Shown piece by piece: positions 6,173-25,104 of a DNA stretch of 40,860 nucleotides (position 1 is its first letter; each line of letters opens with the position of its first letter). The notes below the pieces were generated by a model. That model saw nothing but the letters and a program-made list of their open reading frames with translations, ran no database searches and was not told the origin of the DNA. Position numbers and translations under genes: made by a program. The stretch is from an uncultured Clostridia bacterium. Its GTDB lineage: Bacteria; Bacillota; Clostridia; Oscillospirales; Ruminococcaceae. Location of the stretch: contig CANQWC010000020.1 in the NCBI GenBank assembly GCA_947627455.1, positions 1-40,860 on the forward strand, read 5' to 3'.

Positions 6173-6790
6173 ATGACTCAACGTGAAAGAATGGAAAAGG
6201 GCCTTGTCTACGACCCTTCTGACGATTCCCTCAAGGGCGAGCAGGCCGAGCTTGCCGAGTTTTTGTACGATTTCAACCACTCCCGCCCGAGCGAGCAGGA
6301 AAAGCGCGACGCTCTCCTTAAGAAAATGCTCGGCGCCGTCGGCGAGGGCTGTTACATCGAGCCGCCGTTTTACGCCAACTGGTCGGGAAAGAACGTTTAT
6401 TTCGGCTCGCATGTCTATGCGAATTTCGGGCTTACGCTTGTCGACGACGCGAAGATAACCGTCGGCGATTATGTCATGTTCGGGCCGCATGTCACCATCG
6501 CGACCGCGAACCACACCGTCTGGCCCGAGCTGAGGCTCAGGGAGATGCAGTATAACCGCGGCGTGACCATCGGAAGAAACGTCTGGATAGGCGCGGGAAC
6601 GGTCATCGTGCCCGGGGTCAGCATCGGCGAAAATTCTGTCATCGGCGCGGGCAGCGTCGTCACCCGAGATATCCCCGCGAACGTCGTTGCGGTCGGCGTG
6701 CCCTGCAGAGTTATGCGGCCGATATCCGAGCACGACCGCGAGTATTTTTATCGCGATGAAAAAATCGACTGGGAGAACATCGAGCTTTGA
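6173..6790 (+). CDS. Maltose/galactoside O-acetyltransferase-like enzyme
   Basis: The 205-aa protein belongs to the LacA/Maa family of acetyl-CoA-dependent sugar acetyltransferases. It has the N-terminal Mac domain (MTQRERMEKGLVYDPSD) and a left-handed beta helix of hexapeptide repeats in the C-terminal half. The catalytic-His segment is ATANHTV, and later repeats read WIGAGTVIVPGVSIGENSVIGAGSVV. ATG at 6173 has GGAGG 7 nt upstream; a GTG two codons earlier overlaps that site. It has its own strong promoter. The sugar substrate cannot be told from sequence; a detoxifying role is typical. Confidence 0.9.
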   Translation: MTQRERMEKGLVYDPSDDSLKGEQAELAEFLYDFNHSRPSEQEKRDALLKKMLGAVGEGCYIEPPFYANWSGKNVYFGSHVYANFGLTLVDDAKITVGDYVMFGPHVTIATANHTVWPELRLREMQYNRGVTIGRNVWIGAGTVIVPGVSIGENSVIGAGSVVTRDIPANVVAVGVPCRVMRPISEHDREYFYRDEKIDWENIEL

Positions 6791-6805
6791 GCGCACGGTG
6801 AAAAT

Positions 6806-6952
6806 ATGAGACTTGAATATGAAAATCTGACGGTCAGAAGCGCCGAAGACGCCGACATACCCTTTTATGTGATGTGGTGGAACGACGGCGAGCTTCAGAC
6901 TACCGTTTTCTGCGAGCTTTTGCCCGAAAATTTCGTGAGCTTTATAAAATGA
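6806..6952 (+). pseudogene. Remnant of a GNAT acetyltransferase gene
   Basis: A 48-codon frame begins MRLEYENLTVRSAEDADIPF and continues VMWWNDGE. This is how many GNAT-family N-acetyltransferases of Clostridia start (about 160-180 aa normally). The frame then joins a short unrelated-looking tail (LLPENFVSFIK) and stops right before a terminator. The acetyl-CoA binding motif is missing. It starts 15 nt after the sugar acetyltransferase and was probably its co-transcribed neighbour before an internal deletion. Expression as a short peptide cannot be excluded. Confidence 0.65.
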
Positions 6953-6953
6953 G

Positions 6954-6981
6954 AAATCCCCTCGGCAGAGGGGATTTTTTT
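6954..6981 (+). terminator. Terminator after acetyltransferase/GNAT remnant
   Basis: The stem AATCCCCTC / GAGGGGATT has a 4-nt loop followed by seven T. It closes the plus-strand unit that starts at 6114. Confidence 0.85.
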
Positions 6982-7035
6982 AATCAATAAATCATCAAGA
7001 GAGAATTTTTCAACAAACGATTGAGAAAACGGCAA

Positions 7036-7068
7036 TAAAAATCCCCCGCCGAGGCAGGGGACTTTTAA
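7036..7068 (-). terminator. Rubrerythrin terminator
   Basis: Read on the minus strand, TCCCCTGCC and GGCGGGGGA pair across a 3-nt loop (one mismatch or wobble), followed by TTTTTATT. It lies just past the rbr stop codon. Confidence 0.8.
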
Positions 7069-7072
7069 TTTC

Positions 7073-7606
7073 TCAATAGTTTTCTTTCCTGACTTCAAAG
7101 AAGCTCTGGGGGTGTGCGCAGACGGGGCAAACAGCGGGTGCTTTCTTGCCGATGACAAGATGACCGCAGTTGCGGCATTCCCACATGGTCTCCTCAGACT
7201 TCTCAAATACCTTCTGCATCTCAACGTTGTTGAGAAGAGCGCGGTATCTTTCCTCGTGAGCCTTTTCGATAGCGGCGACGGCTTTGAATCTGTATGCGAT
7301 GGCGGTGAAGCCCTCTTCCTCCGCCTCTTTGGCGAAGGTCGCGTACATGTCGGTCCACTCATAGTTCTCGCCCTCGGCCGCTGCCTTGAGGTTTTCGGCG
7401 GTGGTGCCGATTCCCTTGAGCTCTTTAAGCCAGAGCTTTGCGTGTTCCTTTTCGTTCTCGGCGGTCTTAAGGAAGATCTCCGCTATTTGCTCATATCCTT
7501 CCTTCTTTGCGACGGAAGCGAAATAAGTATACTTGTTTCTTGCCTGAGATTCGCCCGCGAAAGCTGTCTGAAGGTTCTTTTCTGTTTTGCTGCCTTTAAG
7601 TTCCAT
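7073..7606 (-). CDS. rbr: Rubrerythrin
   Basis: The 177-aa di-iron protein reduces hydrogen peroxide in anaerobes, taking electrons via rubredoxin or NADH-dependent partners. The N-terminal ferritin-like four-helix domain (residues 1-135) carries Glu19, E52-x2-H55 and E114-x2-H117 as likely iron ligands. The C-terminal rubredoxin-like domain has C144-x2-C147 and C160-x2-C163 for a single Fe. Start [10 protein letters not shown] at 7606 follows AAGGAGAG; the 17 residues upstream in frame are not part of the family. It has its own promoter and terminator, so it is monocistronic. No PerR-like box was identified. Confidence 0.96.
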
Positions 7607-16063: not shown

Positions 16064-16150
16064 GCGGGTATGGCGGAATTGGCAGACGCGCATGGTTCAG
16101 GTCCATGTGAAAGCAATTTCATGCAGGTTCAAGTCCTGTTACCCGCACCA
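16064..16150 (+). tRNA. tRNA-Leu(CAG)
   Basis: The acceptor stem GCGGGTA pairs with TACCCGC, followed by discriminator A and an encoded CCA. The anticodon stem CATGG/CCATG encloses loop TTCAGGT, giving anticodon CAG (reads CUG). A long class II variable arm (about 14 nt) and a GGTTCAAGTCC T-loop support Leu. Length is 87 nt. Its 3' end faces the accessory region with the helicase fusion. Confidence 0.95.
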
Positions 16151-16220: not shown

Positions 16221-16467
16221 GAGATGTTGATAAAGCGCAGGATGTTGCGATTATGACTACCTTTCAAGCAGAGTTAAAGTACGGTCGCTTTGGATTGCAG
16301 ACGCGATTAAAACTCTTTGAGCCAACCGAGGCAATCGTTCCCGCCGAGGGCAGGCGAAAAGATAGTTTTAACGCTTCTGCTATGGACGCGTCTATTTCTC
16401 CGCAAGCACGAGCGGGCGGGCATTTATGCCCGCGAAGTGCGAGTGGCAAGAAATAACGCTTCTATTG
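16187..16467 (+). repeat. 281-bp dispersed repeat downstream of tRNA-Leu (copy 1)
   Basis: It starts GGGCGATAGATCGC and ends in AACGCTTCTATTG. An inverted copy of almost the same length lies at 30790-31071. The best conserved part runs from GCAGACGCGATTAAAACTC through GGCAGGCGAAAAGATAG to AACGCTTCTGCTATGGA. Both copies follow a tRNA gene and its terminator in the same relative orientation. The short frames inside have no ribosome sites. The gap 16189-16653 otherwise holds only direct repeat unit 2 and the promoter of the next gene. Confidence 0.75.
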
Positions 16468-16494
16468 CACCACGCCGTCGCAAGCTTCGACTTT

Positions 16495-16612: not shown

Positions 16613-16653
16613 TATTATAAATATGTAACTATCTGTCAAACAGGGGTGAATTT

Positions 16654-19600
16654 ATGAAGCATATCTATTTTATAGATACAGAGGTCAGCGAAGCCGATAA
16701 CAAGGCTTATGATTTCGGTGCGCTGAACGAAAATGATGACAAGCTGCACACAAGATCCGCTCATGAATTTCACGCCTTTATTGCAAGCGCAGAATATCTT
16801 TGCGGCCATAATATCGTCAACCACGACGCCAAGTATATTGAGCCTCCGAAAGCCGCAAAGCTCATCGACACTCTTTATATTTCGCCCCTGTTGTTTCCGA
16901 ACAAGCCATACCACAGGCTTCTGAAAGACGACAAGCTTCAGACTGATGAGCTTAACAATCCTTTGAATGATGCGGTCAAGGCAAAGGAACTTTTCTATGA
17001 TGAAGTCAACGCCTTTGCGGAGCTTGATGGCGAAATGAAGCGTATCTATTACATGCTCCTGAAGAACAGTCCGTGTTTTTCAGGCTTCTTTGATTATCTG
17101 GGTTTTTCTGCCGATGGTGATCTTGAAGCCGCGATACGTTCAAGATTTTTCGGCGAAATATGTGAAAACGCGCCGCTTTCCGATATTGTCGCCGATTCAC
17201 CGATCGAGCTTGCCTACTGCCTCGCTTTGATCTCGGCGACTGAGGAATATTCTCTGATACCGAGATGGGTTCAGATGACCTATCCGCATGTTGATATGAT
17301 CATGCGGGCGCTTCGCAGCATTCCCTGTCATGAGTGCGAATACTGCAAGTCGAGGCTTAACCCGACAAGTTATCTTAACAGATATTTCGGCTATTCCGAA
17401 TTTCGCAGATATAACGGCGAGCCGCTGCAAGAGAATGCCGTCATGGCGGCGGCAGAGCATAAGTCGCTGCTTGCCGTTTTCCCGACGGGAGGCGGAAAAT
17501 CTCTTACATTTCAGCTTCCTGCGCTCATGGCGGGCGAGACAGAGCGCGCGCTTACCGTCGTTATTTCTCCGCTTCAGTCGCTGATGAAAGATCAGGTGGA
17601 TAATCTCACTAAGCGCGGCATTGCCGAAGCAGTTACGATCAACGGTTTGCTCAGCCCCATCGAAAGGGCCGAAGCCATTGAGCGTGTTGAATCGGGTATC
17701 GCTTCAATACTCTATATTTCCCCCGAATCGCTTCGCTCAGCGACGATAGAGAGGCTGTTTTTGTCCCGCCATATTGACCGATTTGTAATCGATGAAGCTC
17801 ACTGCTTCTCAGCATGGGGTCAGGATTTCCGCGTGGATTATTTGTATATCGGCGATTTTATCCGCGAACTTCAGGAAAAGAAAGGCCGCGGCTGTAAGAT
17901 ATCGGTATCCTGCTTTACTGCGACTGCAAAGCAAAAGGTCATCAGCGATATAAAAGAATATTTCAAGGAAAAGCTGAATATCGAGCTTGAGCTTTTCGCG
18001 ACGAATGCCTCGCGCACTAATCTTCGGTATGAGGTTCTGTATAAAGAAACCGACGAAGAAAAATATGAAACGCTCCGCAGCCTTATCGAGCTGAAAAACT
18101 GCCCGACCATCGTCTATGCTTCAAGAACAAAGAGAACGGGAGAGCTTGCCGAAAAGCTTTGCAGCGACGGTTTCAAGGCAAGGCCGTTCAACGGAAAAAT
18201 GGACAGCAGCGAGAAGCAGGAGAATCAGGACGCCTTTATCAATGACGAGGTGCAGATAATAGTTGCGACATCGGCTTTCGGCATGGGCGTTGACAAATCC
18301 AACGTAAAGTTGGTGGTTCATTATGATATCTCCGACTCTCTTGAAAACTATGTTCAGGAAGCGGGGCGCGCAGGCAGAGACGAGAGATTGCAGGCTGAGT
18401 GCTATGTGCTGTTCAATGACGGCGATCTCGACAAACATTTTATACTTCTCAACCAGACCAAACTCAGCATCAGCGAGATACAGCAGGTCTGGAAGGCTGT
18501 AAAAGACCTCACCCGAACCCGCCCCGAAGTTTGCTGTTCTCCTCTTGAGGTTGCAAGACAGGCAGGCTGGGACGACAGCGTTTCCGACATTGAAACAAGA
18601 GTAAAAACAGCGATACAGGCCCTTGAAAACGCGGGCTATATAAAGCGCGGCAAAAATGTTCCTCATGTTTACGCAAACAGTATCCTTGTAAAAAGCATGA
18701 TTGAAGCGACCGAGAAAATCGACAGCTCTTTCCGCTTTGAGAATGACAATGAGAGAACTGCCGCCAAGCGTATAATAAAATCTTTGATTTCAAGCAAAAG
18801 CGTTTCAAGAGCAGGAAATGCCGACGCAGAATCAAGAGTGGATTATCTTGCCGACAGGCTCGGCATGGAAAAATCTGATGTTATCCATTCCATTCAGCAG
18901 ATGCGTGAGGACGGCCTTCTTGCAGACACCAAAGACCTTACCGCCTATATTCAGAAAACGGACACAGTCAATAAATCAATGCTTGTGTTGTACCGTTTTC
19001 AAGATCTCGAAACTTTTCTCCTCAAATATATTGATGCAGACAGAATATGCATGAACTATAAAGAGCTGAACGAAGCCGCCCTTGCCGAGGGCATCAAGAG
19101 CAGCTCCGTGAATTCCATAAAAACATTATTCTATTATTGGACGATACGGAGCTACATTCAGAAAGAGCAGGATCAGGCCACAAACAAGGTGATCATTGTC
19201 CCCAAGATGAGCATAGAGCGCATCAGGGAAAAGCGCAATAAAAGCTATGCCGTTGCTGAATTCATCATAAACTATCTGTTTCATATCAGCAGTGAAGATG
19301 TCGGCCCCAAGAATGAAGTACTTGTGGGTTTTTCAATACTTGAACTTCTGAATGCCTATCGCGCTCAATCGCTGATAGAGGTAACGGAAAGCGATATTGA
19401 AGAAGCCCTGCTGTTTTTGTCCAAGATAGGTGCGCTGAAGCTTGAAGGCGGCTTTCTTGTGCTCTACAGCGGAATGCGCATCAAGCGGCTGATACTTGAC
19501 AATAAAATCCGCTATAAGCTGGAAGACTACAAGCAGCTAAATGAATATTATCAGCAGAAGATCCAACAGATACATATAGTGGGCGAGTATGCAAACATGA

Positions 19601-21423
19601 TGGTTCGCGATTACAGACAGGCGCTGCAATTCGTCAACGATTATTTCCAAATGGATTATAAAAAGTTTTTGGCTCAGTATTTTTCAGGTGAAAGAGCCGC
19701 CGAGATCGAGCGGAATATCACTCCCGAAAAATATCGGCAGATGTTTGACACTCTCTCGGAAAGGCAGCTTGCCATTATCCGCGATGATTCTTCAAAGCAT
19801 ATAGTCGTCTCGGCAGGCCCGGGGAGCGGAAAAACAAAAGTGCTTGTCCACAAGCTTGCGTCGCTCATGCTGCTTGAAGATGTCAAGCATGAACAGCTTC
19901 TGATGCTTACGTTTTCGCGCGCCGCCGCCATAGAATTCAAACAGCGTCTTCGCGATCTCATTGGCAACGCCGCCAATTTTGTCGAAATAAAAACGTTTCA
20001 TTCCTACTGCTTTGATCTTCTCGGAAAGATAGGTAATTTGCAGGAAACGGAAAATATCGTGAGGGACGCAGGCGAGCTCATCAGAAACGGCGATGTTGAC
20101 TTGGGAAGGATCACAAAATCCGTGCTTGTTATAGATGAAGCTCAGGACATGGATATTCATGAATATCGCCTTGTCGAAGCTCTCATGGAGCGCAACGAGG
20201 ACATGCGTGTGATCGCCGTGGGCGATGATGACCAGAACATCTACCAATTTCGCGGCTCTGATTCCAAATATTTCAAATCGTTTATCACCGATCATGACGC
20301 AAAGCAGTATTCTCTTATCGACAATTACAGAAGCTGTCAGAGCGTGGTGGGTTTTGCAAATCGGTTTGTGAAAACCGTCTCCGAGAGAATGAAGTCGGAA
20401 GACATCATCGCTGTTTCCGAAAGTTTAGGCGAGGTCAAGCTCATAAAGCATGTCGGTTCAAACATGGAAACCGCTTTAGTAGAGGACATGATTTCTGCCG
20501 ATTCAAAAGGCACTTCCTGTATTCTGACCAACACAAATCAGGAGGCCTTGCTGATATTGGGCATTCTGAAGCAGAGAAATATCCCCGCAAAGCTGATACA
20601 GTCCATCGACGGCTTTGATATGTATGATATTGCAGAGCTGCGTTATTTTCTGAAAATTCTGAATAGGGAAAACACCTCTCCCGTCATCAGCGATGAACAG
20701 TGGAACAGCGCGGTCAAGTCGCTTTCAGAGCAGTACAGCGGCAGCGCCTGTCTGCCGATCATCATGAATATTATTCATACTTTTGAGGAAGCCAACGAAA
20801 AGAAATACCGTACAGATTTTGAAATGTTCCTGCACGAATCCGAAATAGAGGACTTTTATAAGGCCGAAAGCGACATTGTAACTATCTCGACGATGCACAA
20901 GTCAAAGGGGCGGGAATTCGACAATGTATATATGCTCCTCAGCAGCGTCGATATCGCGACAGACGAAGAAAAGCGCAAGCTCTATGTCGGCATGACGAGG
21001 GCAAAGAACCTGCTGCATATTCACTATTTCGGCGATCTATTAGATCGGTTTGCCGAGTATGCGACCACCGATGAGGTCGACCTTCACACCTACCCGAAGC
21101 CCTCGGAGATTATCCTTCAGCTTTCCCACAAAGATGTTTATCTTGACTTCTTCAAGGACAAAAAATCCCTGATACTCCAACTGAAAAGCGGTATGCATCT
21201 TACGGTAAAGAGCAACAGGCTTTATGTGCAGTCAAATGGTTTTCTCAAGCCCGTGCTCCAATTTTCTTCCAAGTGCAGCGAAAGCATCAAGCAGCTGATT
21301 TCATCGGGCTACATGCCTTATGACGCAGTGATAAGATTCATATGTGCTTGGAAGGGGAAAGAAGACGCCGATGAGTCAGCGGTTATATTGGCGGACATAT
21401 ATCTCAGCTCGCAATTATCCTGA
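16654..21423 (+). CDS. Exonuclease-like / RecQ helicase / UvrD-type helicase triple fusion (1589 aa)
   Basis: The layout is as follows. (1) Residues 1-~125 resemble a DnaQ/DEDD 3'-5' exonuclease: FIDTE (Asp8, Glu10), GHNIVNHD (Asp58) and NNPLNDA (Asp106), with Asn where the catalytic His of DEDDh enzymes would be. (2) Cys225, 228 and 231 form a C-x2-C-x2-C cluster. (3) A RecQ-type SF2 helicase spans ~255-600: Walker A FPTGGGKS (276-283), IDEAH (379-383), SAWGQDFR, QEAGRAGRD (568-576). (4) A ~430-residue linker contains winged-helix-like pieces. (5) A UvrD/PcrA-type SF1 helicase spans ~1030-1470: AGPGSGKT (1054-1061), DEAQD (1161-1165), VGDDDQNIYQFRGS, STMHKSKGREFDNV, YVGMTRA. It probably unwinds and trims DNA. 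All ATPase motifs look intact. It is a stand-alone gene downstream of tRNA-Leu; visually its codon use is less GC-rich than the neighbours. Repair or anti-phage defence are both possible. Confidence 0.85.
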   Translation: MKHIYFIDTEVSEADNKAYDFGALNENDDKLHTRSAHEFHAFIASAEYLCGHNIVNHDAKYIEPPKAAKLIDTLYISPLLFPNKPYHRLLKDDKLQTDELNNPLNDAVKAKELFYDEVNAFAELDGEMKRIYYMLLKNSPCFSGFFDYLGFSADGDLEAAIRSRFFGEICENAPLSDIVADSPIELAYCLALISATEEYSLIPRWVQMTYPHVDMIMRALRSIPCHECEYCKSRLNPTSYLNRYFGYSEFRRYNGEPLQENAVMAAAEHKSLLAVFPTGGGKSLTFQLPALMAGETERALTVVISPLQSLMKDQVDNLTKRGIAEAVTINGLLSPIERAEAIERVESGIASILYISPESLRSATIERLFLSRHIDRFVIDEAHCFSAWGQDFRVDYLYIGDFIRELQEKKGRGCKISVSCFTATAKQKVISDIKEYFKEKLNIELELFATNASRTNLRYEVLYKETDEEKYETLRSLIELKNCPTIVYASRTKRTGELAEKLCSDGFKARPFNGKMDSSEKQENQDAFINDEVQIIVATSAFGMGVDKSNVKLVVHYDISDSLENYVQEAGRAGRDERLQAECYVLFNDGDLDKHFILLNQTKLSISEIQQVWKAVKDLTRTRPEVCCSPLEVARQAGWDDSVSDIETRVKTAIQALENAGYIKRGKNVPHVYANSILVKSMIEATEKIDSSFRFENDNERTAAKRIIKSLISSKSVSRAGNADAESRVDYLADRLGMEKSDVIHSIQQMREDGLLADTKDLTAYIQKTDTVNKSMLVLYRFQDLETFLLKYIDADRICMNYKELNEAALAEGIKSSSVNSIKTLFYYWTIRSYIQKEQDQATNKVIIVPKMSIERIREKRNKSYAVAEFIINYLFHISSEDVGPKNEVLVGFSILELLNAYRAQSLIEVTESDIEEALLFLSKIGALKLEGGFLVLYSGMRIKRLILDNKIRYKLEDYKQLNEYYQQKIQQIHIVGEYANMMVRDYRQALQFVNDYFQMDYKKFLAQYFSGERAAEIERNITPEKYRQMFDTLSERQLAIIRDDSSKHIVVSAGPGSGKTKVLVHKLASLMLLEDVKHEQLLMLTFSRAAAIEFKQRLRDLIGNAANFVEIKTFHSYCFDLLGKIGNLQETENIVRDAGELIRNGDVDLGRITKSVLVIDEAQDMDIHEYRLVEALMERNEDMRVIAVGDDDQNIYQFRGSDSKYFKSFITDHDAKQYSLIDNYRSCQSVVGFANRFVKTVSERMKSEDIIAVSESLGEVKLIKHVGSNMETALVEDMISADSKGTSCILTNTNQEALLILGILKQRNIPAKLIQSIDGFDMYDIAELRYFLKILNRENTSPVISDEQWNSAVKSLSEQYSGSACLPIIMNIIHTFEEANEKKYRTDFEMFLHESEIEDFYKAESDIVTISTMHKSKGREFDNVYMLLSSVDIATDEEKRKLYVGMTRAKNLLHIHYFGDLLDRFAEYATTDEVDLHTYPKPSEIILQLSHKDVYLDFFKDKKSLILQLKSGMHLTVKSNRLYVQSNGFLKPVLQFSSKCSESIKQLISSGYMPYDAVIRFICAWKGKEDADESAVILADIYLSSQLS

Positions 21424-22947: not shown

Positions 22948-23656
22948 TTATCCGCCGTATCTGAATTTAAGAATAAACGGCTGAATATTCGGCAGCCCGA
23001 TTATCGCCTCGCCAATGCTGAGGGTCGAGATGTCCCGGTTCTCAACAACGTTCGAGTCTCTTATCTGCTCGGTTACGCCCTTGCTCTGGTTCGAGGCCAT
23101 ATAGATCTCCATTTTTCTGTTTGCCCCGTGAAGCTCCTTGATGAAGTCTCTTGAAGCCGCGTCGTTCACCCTAAAAGCCACGCTCGTGAGGAATCCCGAG
23201 AGAATGCTTCTTGCCCTCATCTCGCCGTAGACGTCATAGATCTGTTCGACGTTCTGAATTCCGATCATGAACTTAACGCCCATACCTCTGCCGAAGTTTA
23301 TTCCAATAGTCGGGCCCGTTCGGCCCGCAGGCGTGCGAGTCGTTGCTGATGACAACATCGCCCTCGCGGTAGAATTCGCTGTAAAAATCTCCCTTGGTGT
23401 CAAAAATGACCATTACGTCCTTGTCGGTGAGGGTATACTGAAGCTGTTTCAGAATCTGGAAGAACGCGGTGGTTTTACCCGTTCCTATTCCGCCGATGAG
23501 CATAAGGTGTCTGCTGAGAATGTTTTCGTCCGGCGGCACCTGAATCTGTTTTCCCGAGCGGGTTCTTCCGATGAACGCGCATCTCGGGTCGCCGACCTTA
23601 AGGCCGATCGGCAGATCCTGAAGACTGCTGCCCTCAAAAACCTCGACCTTTTTCAC
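22948..23656 (-). pseudogene. Degraded conjugative coupling protein (VirD4/TraD-like ATPase)
   Basis: Two reading frames together look like the two ends of a type IV secretion coupling ATPase. The upstream part (GTG at 23656) has DPRCAFIGRTRSGKQIQVP, Walker A GGIGTGKTT and Walker B-like VMVIFDTKGDF. It runs to PDYWNK and then hits a stop at about 23273. The downstream part is in another frame and reads GVKFMIGIQNVEQIYDVYG, ending in LPNIQPFILKFRYGG, a typical C terminus. The middle (roughly 200 residues in relatives) is gone at a junction near 23280-23300, with a frameshift. The protein cannot work as an ATPase. It marks a former conjugative or mobilisable element. Confidence 0.75.
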
Positions 23657-23888: not shown

Positions 23889-24446
23889 ATGGAGGACGGA
23901 AGCATCATAGAGCTGTTTGAAGAGCGGAGCGAACTCGCGCTCAAAGAGACCGAGAGCAAATACGGCCGATTGATTCTCGGGCTTTCAAGAAGAATAACGG
24001 GTTCTGAATCCGACGCCGAGGAATGTCTCAACGATTCTCTTCTTGCGCTCTGGAACTCAATTCCGCCCGCCAAGCCCGACAACCTATGCGCCTTTGTCTC
24101 GAAGATAGCGCGAAACTGCGCGCTCGGAAAGCTTGACTACAGCCTTGCGCAAAAGCGTTCAAAGAATTCCTCCGTGCCGATCGATGAGATTGAAGCGCTT
24201 CTCTTTGACGAATCGGCTCAGCGTGCTCTTGAGCGCGTCGATCTTAAGCTTCTGCTTGACGGCTTTTTGAGAGGTCTGAAAAAAGACGAGCGAGTGATGT
24301 TTCTCAAAAGGTATTACTTTTTCGATTCGGTCCCCGAGATTGCCGAAGACATGGGCGTCAAAGAAAGCAGGGTAAACTCTCAGCTTTTCAGAACAAGAGA
24401 AAAACTCAGAAAATATCTTAAGGAGGGTGTTAAAAATGAGCAATAA
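23889..24446 (+). CDS. ECF-like sigma-70 family factor
   Basis: The 185-aa protein has sigma region 2 (residues ~20-85: YGRLILGLSRRITGSESDAEECLNDSLLALWNSIPP) and region 4 (~115-175: LKKDERVMFLKRYYFFDSVPEIAEDMGVKESRVNSQLFRTREKLRKYL). This is the two-domain form of extracytoplasmic-function sigma factors. GGAGGTG lies before the ATG. The stop overlaps the next gene by 11 nt, so the two are translationally coupled. This arrangement normally means sigma factor plus its membrane anti-sigma factor. The regulon is unknown. Confidence 0.88.
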   Translation: MEDGSIIELFEERSELALKETESKYGRLILGLSRRITGSESDAEECLNDSLLALWNSIPPAKPDNLCAFVSKIARNCALGKLDYSLAQKRSKNSSVPIDEIEALLFDESAQRALERVDLKLLLDGFLRGLKKDERVMFLKRYYFFDSVPEIAEDMGVKESRVNSQLFRTREKLRKYLKEGVKNEQ

Positions 24447-25104
24447 AATCATAAACGAGTTAAGCAATATCGACGAGGCATACATTCAGGAAGTGTTTGA
24501 CTATAAAAAAAGCGAAAGGAGCAAATTCACCATGAACAAAAAGAAGTTGTTTTCGATAGCGCTCGCGGCGGCTATTGCGATGATCTCAGCGGTGACGGTC
24601 GTTGCCGACGGCGATATTCTCCCCCGCATCGAATCGAAGTGCCTCGGCATATCCCGTTTTGTCCCGCTGAAAACAGAGTATGTCTATCTTCAAATAACGC
24701 CGCCCGATAAAAGATATACAAAACTTACTTATGACGAAAGCGGGCACGCAACCATTTCGATTGAAAAAGAGAAAAACTTTGCAATCGGTCATGCTCTTGA
24801 AGTCCGCCTGAGAAACAACGGCGAGATGTTCTACTTTAATAAGGGCGATAAAATCAAAGTCAGAATAGAAGTGGACTTAAAAGCCAAGGGTCTCACCCGC
24901 ACCAACACAATTGAATTCGGAAGAATATGGAAGGTAGACGACAAGCCTCACGATTTGAAAGTATTCAGAGAACGCGACTACGTCGACGGAGTTCTGGAAT
25001 TTACTTATGAGATACCCATGACGAACGAATACGATTTCTATATCGAAAATCACGGTACTGAATACGCCCATATCAAATCCATTGACATACAAAAAATCTC
25101 CTGA
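24436..25104 (+). CDS. Probable membrane anti-sigma factor partner, extracellular sensor domain
   Basis: The 222-aa protein has a short cytoplasmic part (residues 1-~33, MSNKIINELSNIDEAYIQEV), one membrane segment (~36-58, KKKLFSIALAAAIAMISAVTV) and a ~160-residue outside domain rich in beta-type sequence. The start at 24436 has GGAGGG upstream and overlaps the sigma gene. The cytoplasmic piece is shorter than a classical ZAS or RsiW anti-sigma domain and has no HxxxCxxC zinc motif. The call rests on topology and coupling, not on a recognised domain. Confidence 0.6.
   Translation: MSNKIINELSNIDEAYIQEVFDYKKSERSKFTMNKKKLFSIALAAAIAMISAVTVVADGDILPRIESKCLGISRFVPLKTEYVYLQITPPDKRYTKLTYDESGHATISIEKEKNFAIGHALEVRLRNNGEMFYFNKGDKIKVRIEVDLKAKGLTRTNTIEFGRIWKVDDKPHDLKVFRERDYVDGVLEFTYEIPMTNEYDFYIENHGTEYAHIKSIDIQKIS

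Follow-up and report, generated by a model that had tools for sequence, protein, structure and literature searches.

A single-chain fusion of a DEDD exonuclease-like domain with RecQ- and UvrD-type helicase cores as a candidate mobile defence protein

Among the described systems closest to the protein considered here, WRN carries a DEDDy exonuclease and possesses RQC and HRDC domains, AddAB and RecBCD are multi-subunit assemblies equipped with a nuclease of the PD-(D/E)XK type and controlled by Chi, and the defence helicases GajB, DpdF and PsyrT are separate proteins belonging to multi-gene systems. DinG of B. subtilis is reported to be a DEDD exonuclease joined to a helicase and tied to replication stress (PMC12525004), and in MrfAB a helicase and a 3'-5' exonuclease are reported to work together in repair (PMC12458937). 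Here, we addressed a gene combining such elements on one polypeptide in an arrangement described by none of the papers found in the open-licence PMC literature among the matches listed.

The gene lies in a window of 40,860 nucleotides, by which the whole analysed stretch of DNA is meant, as an intact open reading frame at 16654-21423 of the plus strand coding for 1589 amino acids plus stop, with an ATG start and zero internal stops; GGGGTGA at 16643-16649 of the same strand reads as its likely ribosome-binding site. Its product combines a DEDD exonuclease domain of the DnaQ type with a site of four cysteines and with helicase cores of the RecQ and UvrD kinds. The sequence-only reading, which proposed a DEDD-type head followed by RecQ and UvrD modules with intact motors, is borne out by the Pfam cores, the hhalign match to PF00929 and the conserved residues, while its view of a single odd protein gives way to a family spread over several phyla in genome loci and on plasmids. 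PADLOC 2023 offers single-core matches only and no model spanning both cores (best 25 of 70 families), the top ones being GajB, DpdF and PsyrT, and the top NCBIfam matches also cover one core each (best 25 of 44 families). Conservation was counted over 101 rows, from which antisense rows L071 and L089 had been removed and in which partial rows appear as gaps. Very long antisense open frames (>1350 aa) opposite the gene in these two loci are taken to be an effect of codon composition.

The RecQ-type SF2 helicase core occupies residues 238-602 (17365-18459, plus strand) and the UvrD-type SF1 core residues 1031-1480 (19744-21093, plus strand), the second comprising N- and C-terminal domains of the UvrD/PcrA/Rep kind and both having intact motifs. 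Above cut-off, Pfam places DEAD and Helicase_C in 257-575 and the UvrD N- and C-terminal domains in 1035-1459; K282 is retained in 101 of 101 rows, K1060 in 100 of 101 (the remaining one has X) and D1161/E1162 in all 101. The solved structures closest to the first core are RecQ5, bacterial RecQ, BLM, RecQ1 and WRN, the last of which bears the PDB name of a bifunctional exonuclease/helicase. NCBIfam assigns the fusion to the RecQ family TIGR00614 above cut-off, and the score for the recQ equivalog TIGR01389 stays below it (314 bits vs 640). The RecQ Zn-binding, RQC and HRDC domains expected for canonical recQ were absent from the fusion by Pfam, all three being found by Pfam in a same-genus RecQ. 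Between the motors stretches a largely helical linker (residues 621-1030, 18514-19743, plus strand; described by model, Pfam and hhalign), in which winged-helix-like hints from Pfam fall far below the cut-off, and the chain ends with a confidently modelled C-terminal domain (residues 1481-1589, 21094-21420, plus strand). Residues 600-1030 reach only 0.9% hhalign probability against the RecQ alignment, and hhalign related neither linker nor C-terminal tail to any of the five alignments tried, which represented RecQ, the partner, exonuclease and RNase HI.

The N-terminal domain (residues 1-125, 16654-17028, plus strand) is defined by hhalign, strand order in the model and conservation; the Pfam scan of the fusion listed no exonuclease family at E up to 1. 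A profile of these residues built from 39 family members, 7 of them distant plasmid proteins (L094-L100), matched 28 PF00929 DnaQ-family domains from relatives with an hhalign probability of 96.8% (E 2.4e-10) and scored 0.2% each against RNase HI and RecQ alignments. D8-x-E10 is aligned to motif I, D58 to motif II and D106 to motif III, and these acids are invariant in all rows reaching them (D8, E10 and D58 in 97/97, D106 in 98/98). The AlphaFold model of residues 1-640 (pLDDT 85.9, pTM 0.79) starts with three strands, a helix and another strand, in the order of DEDD exonuclease folds; a fold search with this model returned RecQ-type rows only (best 50), leaving the exonuclease part uncovered. 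The fold and four metal-binding acids of the DnaQ/DEDDh type are in place, but the motif III His (or Tyr) is not, since Asn (N101) takes the place of the usual catalytic His in each of the 98 rows that reach the position. Of the proposed DNA-degrading head, the DEDD-type domain with its acids stands, whereas nuclease activity cannot be assumed because of this Asn; the lack of the standard general base next to a conserved metal site points to an unusual active site or to a DNA-gripping domain.

Four cysteines follow, C170 (17161-17163) and C225-x2-C228-x2-C231 (17326-17346, plus strand), whose conservation makes them a putative one-metal or Fe-S site. Of the 101 rows, 99 retain C225, 99 retain C228 and 100 retain C231; C170 is present in 97 of the 99 that have a letter at its position. 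All four are absent in the Scytonema protein L100 and three of the four in the Aliarcobacter protein L094, and this joint loss suggests that they serve one shared metal or cluster. The spacing is reminiscent of iron-sulphur ligands, and the residues may form a [4Fe-4S] site of the AddB, DinG and Cas4 kind.

A peptide-pattern search of genome contigs returned at least 597 stretches, of which at least 562 encode some relative; these may include ordinary helicases, and the best 80 were kept. Near-whole-length matches, from residue 7 or earlier to residue 1579 or later, are seen in 76 of the 80 loci; L029, L037, L064 and L084 are partial, and the frame of L077 is broken. According to record titles, the hosts belong to Bacillota and Bacteroidota, with single bins of Spirochaetota, Verrucomicrobiota and Lentisphaerota. 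Among plasmid records 25 match at 1e-60. Query coverage reaches 80% or more in five of them, which come from Bacteroides, Phocaeicola, Aliarcobacter, Sulfitobacter and Scytonema. Plasmids of Cereibacter, Rhizobium, Allochromatium and Microvirga contain long versions that diverge further, with open frames of 1705-1813 aa. Counted with their hosts, plasmid copies of the fusion fall into five phyla. They are annotated as "RecQ family ATP-dependent DNA helicase" in seven records and as "ATP-dependent DNA helicase RecQ" in one, the ninth having no annotation at the fusion gene.

Among relatives of the window genome the picture is that of absence: a full-length fusion was found in none of the 59 other relatives searched, including 0 of 30 same-genus genomes, the 17 hits among the 59 corresponding to the RecQ part only. 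In the phylum, 16 of 398 genomes pass 1e-120, comprising the window's own, eight intact full-length frames and seven partial or broken matches, some of which are perhaps cuts at contig ends. Decayed homologues were also observed, L111 being devoid of most of the UvrD part, L115 of the RecQ part and L117 containing stops. Absence of a full-length match from all 30 same-genus genomes, low GC content, plasmid copies and occasional decay characterize the gene as accessory. The earlier idea of an accessory and mobile gene thus gains from its full-length absence in 59 relatives, plasmid homologues and variable neighbours; with defence genes present at some loci, strictly vertical inheritance among core repair genes is not what the family displays.

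In the FastTree phylogeny (96 rows, five partial rows excluded) sequences cluster by phylum beyond chance, Bacteroidota forming a single group and Bacillota requiring three changes. Since Bacteroidota stay largely together, cross-phylum transfer is not frequent in this sample. A Treponema bin is nested in a clade dominated by Ruminococcus (support 92, and 95* at the next fork), as is an Opitutales bin in a Bacillota clade (99*); both placements are leads for transfer rather than proof, because bins can hold stray contigs. Phage origin was rejected: among 50,697 phage records 21 match at 1e-30, over the RecQ part only, and among the matches listed none reaches 80% cover. Homologues are also present on six putatively viral IMG/VR contigs.

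The GC content of the fusion gene is 46.5% and its GC3 is 54.8%, GC3 lying at 65-76 in 15 of the 17 other window genes measured. The two exceptions, an ECF-like sigma-factor gene and the next ORF (23889-25104, plus strand; GC3 of 55.4 and 53.1), may also be foreign. Downstream of the fusion, the gene of a conjugation coupling protein (TraG/TrwB) is represented by two overlapping broken pieces (22951-23656, minus strand). Between the FMN reductase gene and this remnant sits a pair (22477-22929/22115-22450, minus strand) in which a barnase-type ribonuclease domain (PF00545, E 2e-15) adjoins a small ORF with a weak Nif11 match below cut-off. No clear anti-phage gene was recognized by Pfam in the 25 neighbour ORFs of the window, which look like ordinary genes accompanied by a conjugation remnant and not like a defence island.

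Upstream, tRNA-Leu(cag) occupies 16064-16150, and its position had been read as meaningful. Integration into it was judged unlikely, since the window contains no further copy of its 3' end with up to 3 mismatches allowed, and the nearby tRNA is probably incidental. In the genus, tRNA-Leu(cag) follows glgA in 8 of 16 downstream stretches, several of which are short owing to contig ends, and the site behind this pair is variable (window 16064-16150, L150, L160): Pfam detects HsdM, HsdR and a serine recombinase there in G010 and HsdS in G019, and in G026 a resolvase-like ORF was recognized only by eye. Window pieces 16301-16376 and 16436-16487, past the tRNA, match G003 past its own tRNA; part of the latter piece matches a second place in G003, so these pieces may be dispersed repeats that do not fix the insertion point, and an exact empty site was not found. 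This variable site does not show the route by which the window gene arrived.

Neighbours of the relatives present a different picture from those of the window. Out of 256 candidate ORFs, the 137 closest to the fusion were selected; they lie within 926 bp at 77 loci, six loci and ORFs shorter than 140 or longer than 1100 aa being left out. They match 180 PADLOC models at 1e-20, the best 25 including SoFic and mad3 in four ORFs each, PDC-S03 and PDC-S04 in two each, and single matches to Cas3, PtuA, PD-T4-6, Orf5, PDC-S41, PDC-S01, a type II methylase and DruM. As a control, 97 ORFs drawn from 10 carrier genomes at 15 randomly chosen stretches gave 36 models, mostly through seemingly one methylase, with GlgB in two ORFs, PDC-M72A, PDC-M09B and PDC-S01 besides. 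PADLOC matches near the relatives thus exceed a rough control, which is smaller and unmatched, the loci not being independent of shared ancestry; generic ATPases and methylases inflate both counts, and some test ORFs may be spurious. Pfam finds Fic (4), ABC_tran (4), AAA_21 (4) and ResIII (3) among the 137 ORFs. When ten large neighbours were scanned singly, three matched PADLOC at 1e-30, namely Cas3 (L047), a PD-T4-6-type kinase (L031) and Orf5/HEC-06 (L081), and seven gave no match at this threshold; of ten further neighbour proteins, mostly picked as defence-like and four of them from L100, three had no match. The family member L033 matches PDC-S06 in PADLOC. On plasmids, the conjugative Scytonema element has DISARM drmA, drmB and drmC two genes upstream of the fusion and in the same orientation, a type I restriction system is one gene away from the fusion in Allochromatium, and parA/parB adjoin the Aliarcobacter copy.

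Among the neighbours, a single recurrent family is tied to the fusion gene, a protein of about 330 aa. Clustering of neighbour ORFs places its start 15-41 bp downstream of the fusion, in the same orientation, at 8 of the 19 nearest loci (L014, L015, L016, L018, L019, L020, L027 and L078, with L015 cut by a contig end; in L014 it occupies 6348-7331). Short remnants persist in L013 and L031, and the other nine of the 19 have no match, L036 among them offering only 155 bases of flank. A shorter version is located 12 bp downstream in L060, and versions in L040, L044 and L166 lie upstream. Pfam found nothing above cut-off in the seven forms scanned. By hhalign, the middle of the protein aligns with a C-terminal portion of RecQ from relatives (97.4%, E 1.4e-11) and its C-terminal part with RNase HI (93.6%, E 2.1e-7), V, I and S standing in that alignment in place of three catalytic acids. 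The partner is a new family, composed of a domain shared with the C-terminal extension of some RecQ proteins and an RNase HI-like domain lacking catalytic acids. Other versions terminate in a stretch resembling a helix-turn-helix, and a same-genus RecQ (L010:253-2550, minus strand) has an extra post-HRDC domain which the Pfam scan leaves unnamed and which resembles the partner. A search of the window genome gave no partner match, an empty answer that alone carries little weight. The partner looks useful yet dispensable, and the description of the gene as stand-alone holds for the window copy but not for those relatives that carry the partner directly downstream.

The conservation of motors and metal-binding acids, the patchy distribution of a mobile gene and the defence genes adjoining some relatives together favour a role against invaders. 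We therefore give about an even chance to the reading that the fusion is a mobile single-chain helicase-nuclease directed against foreign DNA that is invading or is actively replicating or recombining, most likely in anti-phage or anti-plasmid defence. In the course of action that we infer, the RecQ module, together with the N-terminal exonuclease-like domain and the four-cysteine site in WRN-like order, would load on gaps, forks or tailed ends and then open the duplex; the UvrD module would travel along the exposed strand, clear bound proteins and drive unwinding, and the DEDD domain would trim or grip the 3' end. In those relatives that have it, the partner would add a RecQ-C-terminal-like and an acid-less RNase HI-like domain, probably for substrate recognition. 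A bolder version, doubtful as a whole, sees a new and widespread immune machine of one gene, sometimes two, in which an Fe-S-tethered Asn-type DEDD domain and motors of two superfamilies, all on one chain, recognize and dismantle replicating invader DNA, and the optional partner, with its RNase H-like fold deprived of catalytic acids, selects the target by reading RNA-DNA hybrids. Against defence speak Asn at the place of the catalytic His, a window that is not a defence island, the lack of a whole-protein model in PADLOC, the smaller and unmatched neighbour control, the seven of ten large neighbours left unmatched and the largely undivided Bacteroidota in the tree. The weakness of the tRNA argument and the ordinary neighbourhood of the window do not alter the estimate, as neither bears on the family-wide evidence.

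The main rival, which we regard as rather unlikely, is a mobile factor of DNA repair or replication stress residing on accessory DNA, a prokaryotic analogue of WRN, DinG or MrfAB for stalled forks, gaps or crosslinks. An exonuclease preceding RecQ is the WRN order, and DEDD exonuclease and helicase are reported to be combined in B. subtilis DinG, which is tied to replication stress (PMC12525004), and helicase and 3'-5' exonuclease in the MrfAB repair pair (PMC12458937). The window genome also has no other RecQ: its sole TIGR01389 match at 1e-60 is the fusion, itself below cut-off. Canonical RecQ is found in 13 of the 30 other same-genus genomes, but the remaining 17, without a match at 1e-60, have no full-length fusion either, and the patchy, mobile and sometimes decayed occurrence of the gene and the defence genes adjoining some relatives are further at odds with a repair factor. 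A service to plasmids and conjugative elements themselves, in their replication, resolution or entry, would fit the plasmid copies, one of them beside parA/parB in Aliarcobacter and one on a conjugative plasmid in Scytonema, and the conjugation remnant near the window copy; we consider it improbable, as neighbours vary, the sole recurrent tied family is the partner and not replication or transfer genes, and the window copy and many homologues lie on contigs with no proven element. That the fusion functionally replaces a lost housekeeping RecQ is equally improbable, for although the window genome contains no RecQ-type match besides it, both a canonical RecQ match and the fusion are missing from 17 of the 30 other genomes of the genus, and the Zn, RQC and HRDC domains are absent from it by Pfam.

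Whichever function prevails, the annotated plasmid records examined here name no more than a RecQ helicase for a family that occurs in several phyla and unites three modules, its motors belonging to two superfamilies. If the family is immune, bacterial defence would gain an effector akin to RecBCD on one chain; if it is engaged in repair, bacteria would have a counterpart of WRN furnished with a second motor. Its architecture poses the questions whether SF2 and SF1 motors joined on one chain follow the same strand or opposite strands, and whether a DEDD site can work without His.

Compared with the described systems, the fusion resembles WRN in having a 3'-5' exonuclease-type domain N-terminal to the RecQ core and in that core itself, both in sequence and in the model, but differs from it by Asn instead of His/Tyr at motif III, by the lack of detectable RQC and HRDC and by the added UvrD motor, so that the WRN set of DEDDy exonuclease and RecQ with RQC and HRDC is not reproduced. 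DinG of the B. subtilis type and MrfAB are similar in associating a DEDD exonuclease with an SF2 helicase, although their helicases belong to other families and an SF1 motor is absent there. GajB, DpdF and PsyrT each resemble one core of the fusion only, according to PADLOC. AddAB and RecBCD differ from it in that the fusion is one chain, with a DEDD-type domain and RecQ as second motor. Thus the first half of the protein is WRN-like and the whole is like a one-chain AddAB, while it is a member of neither family.
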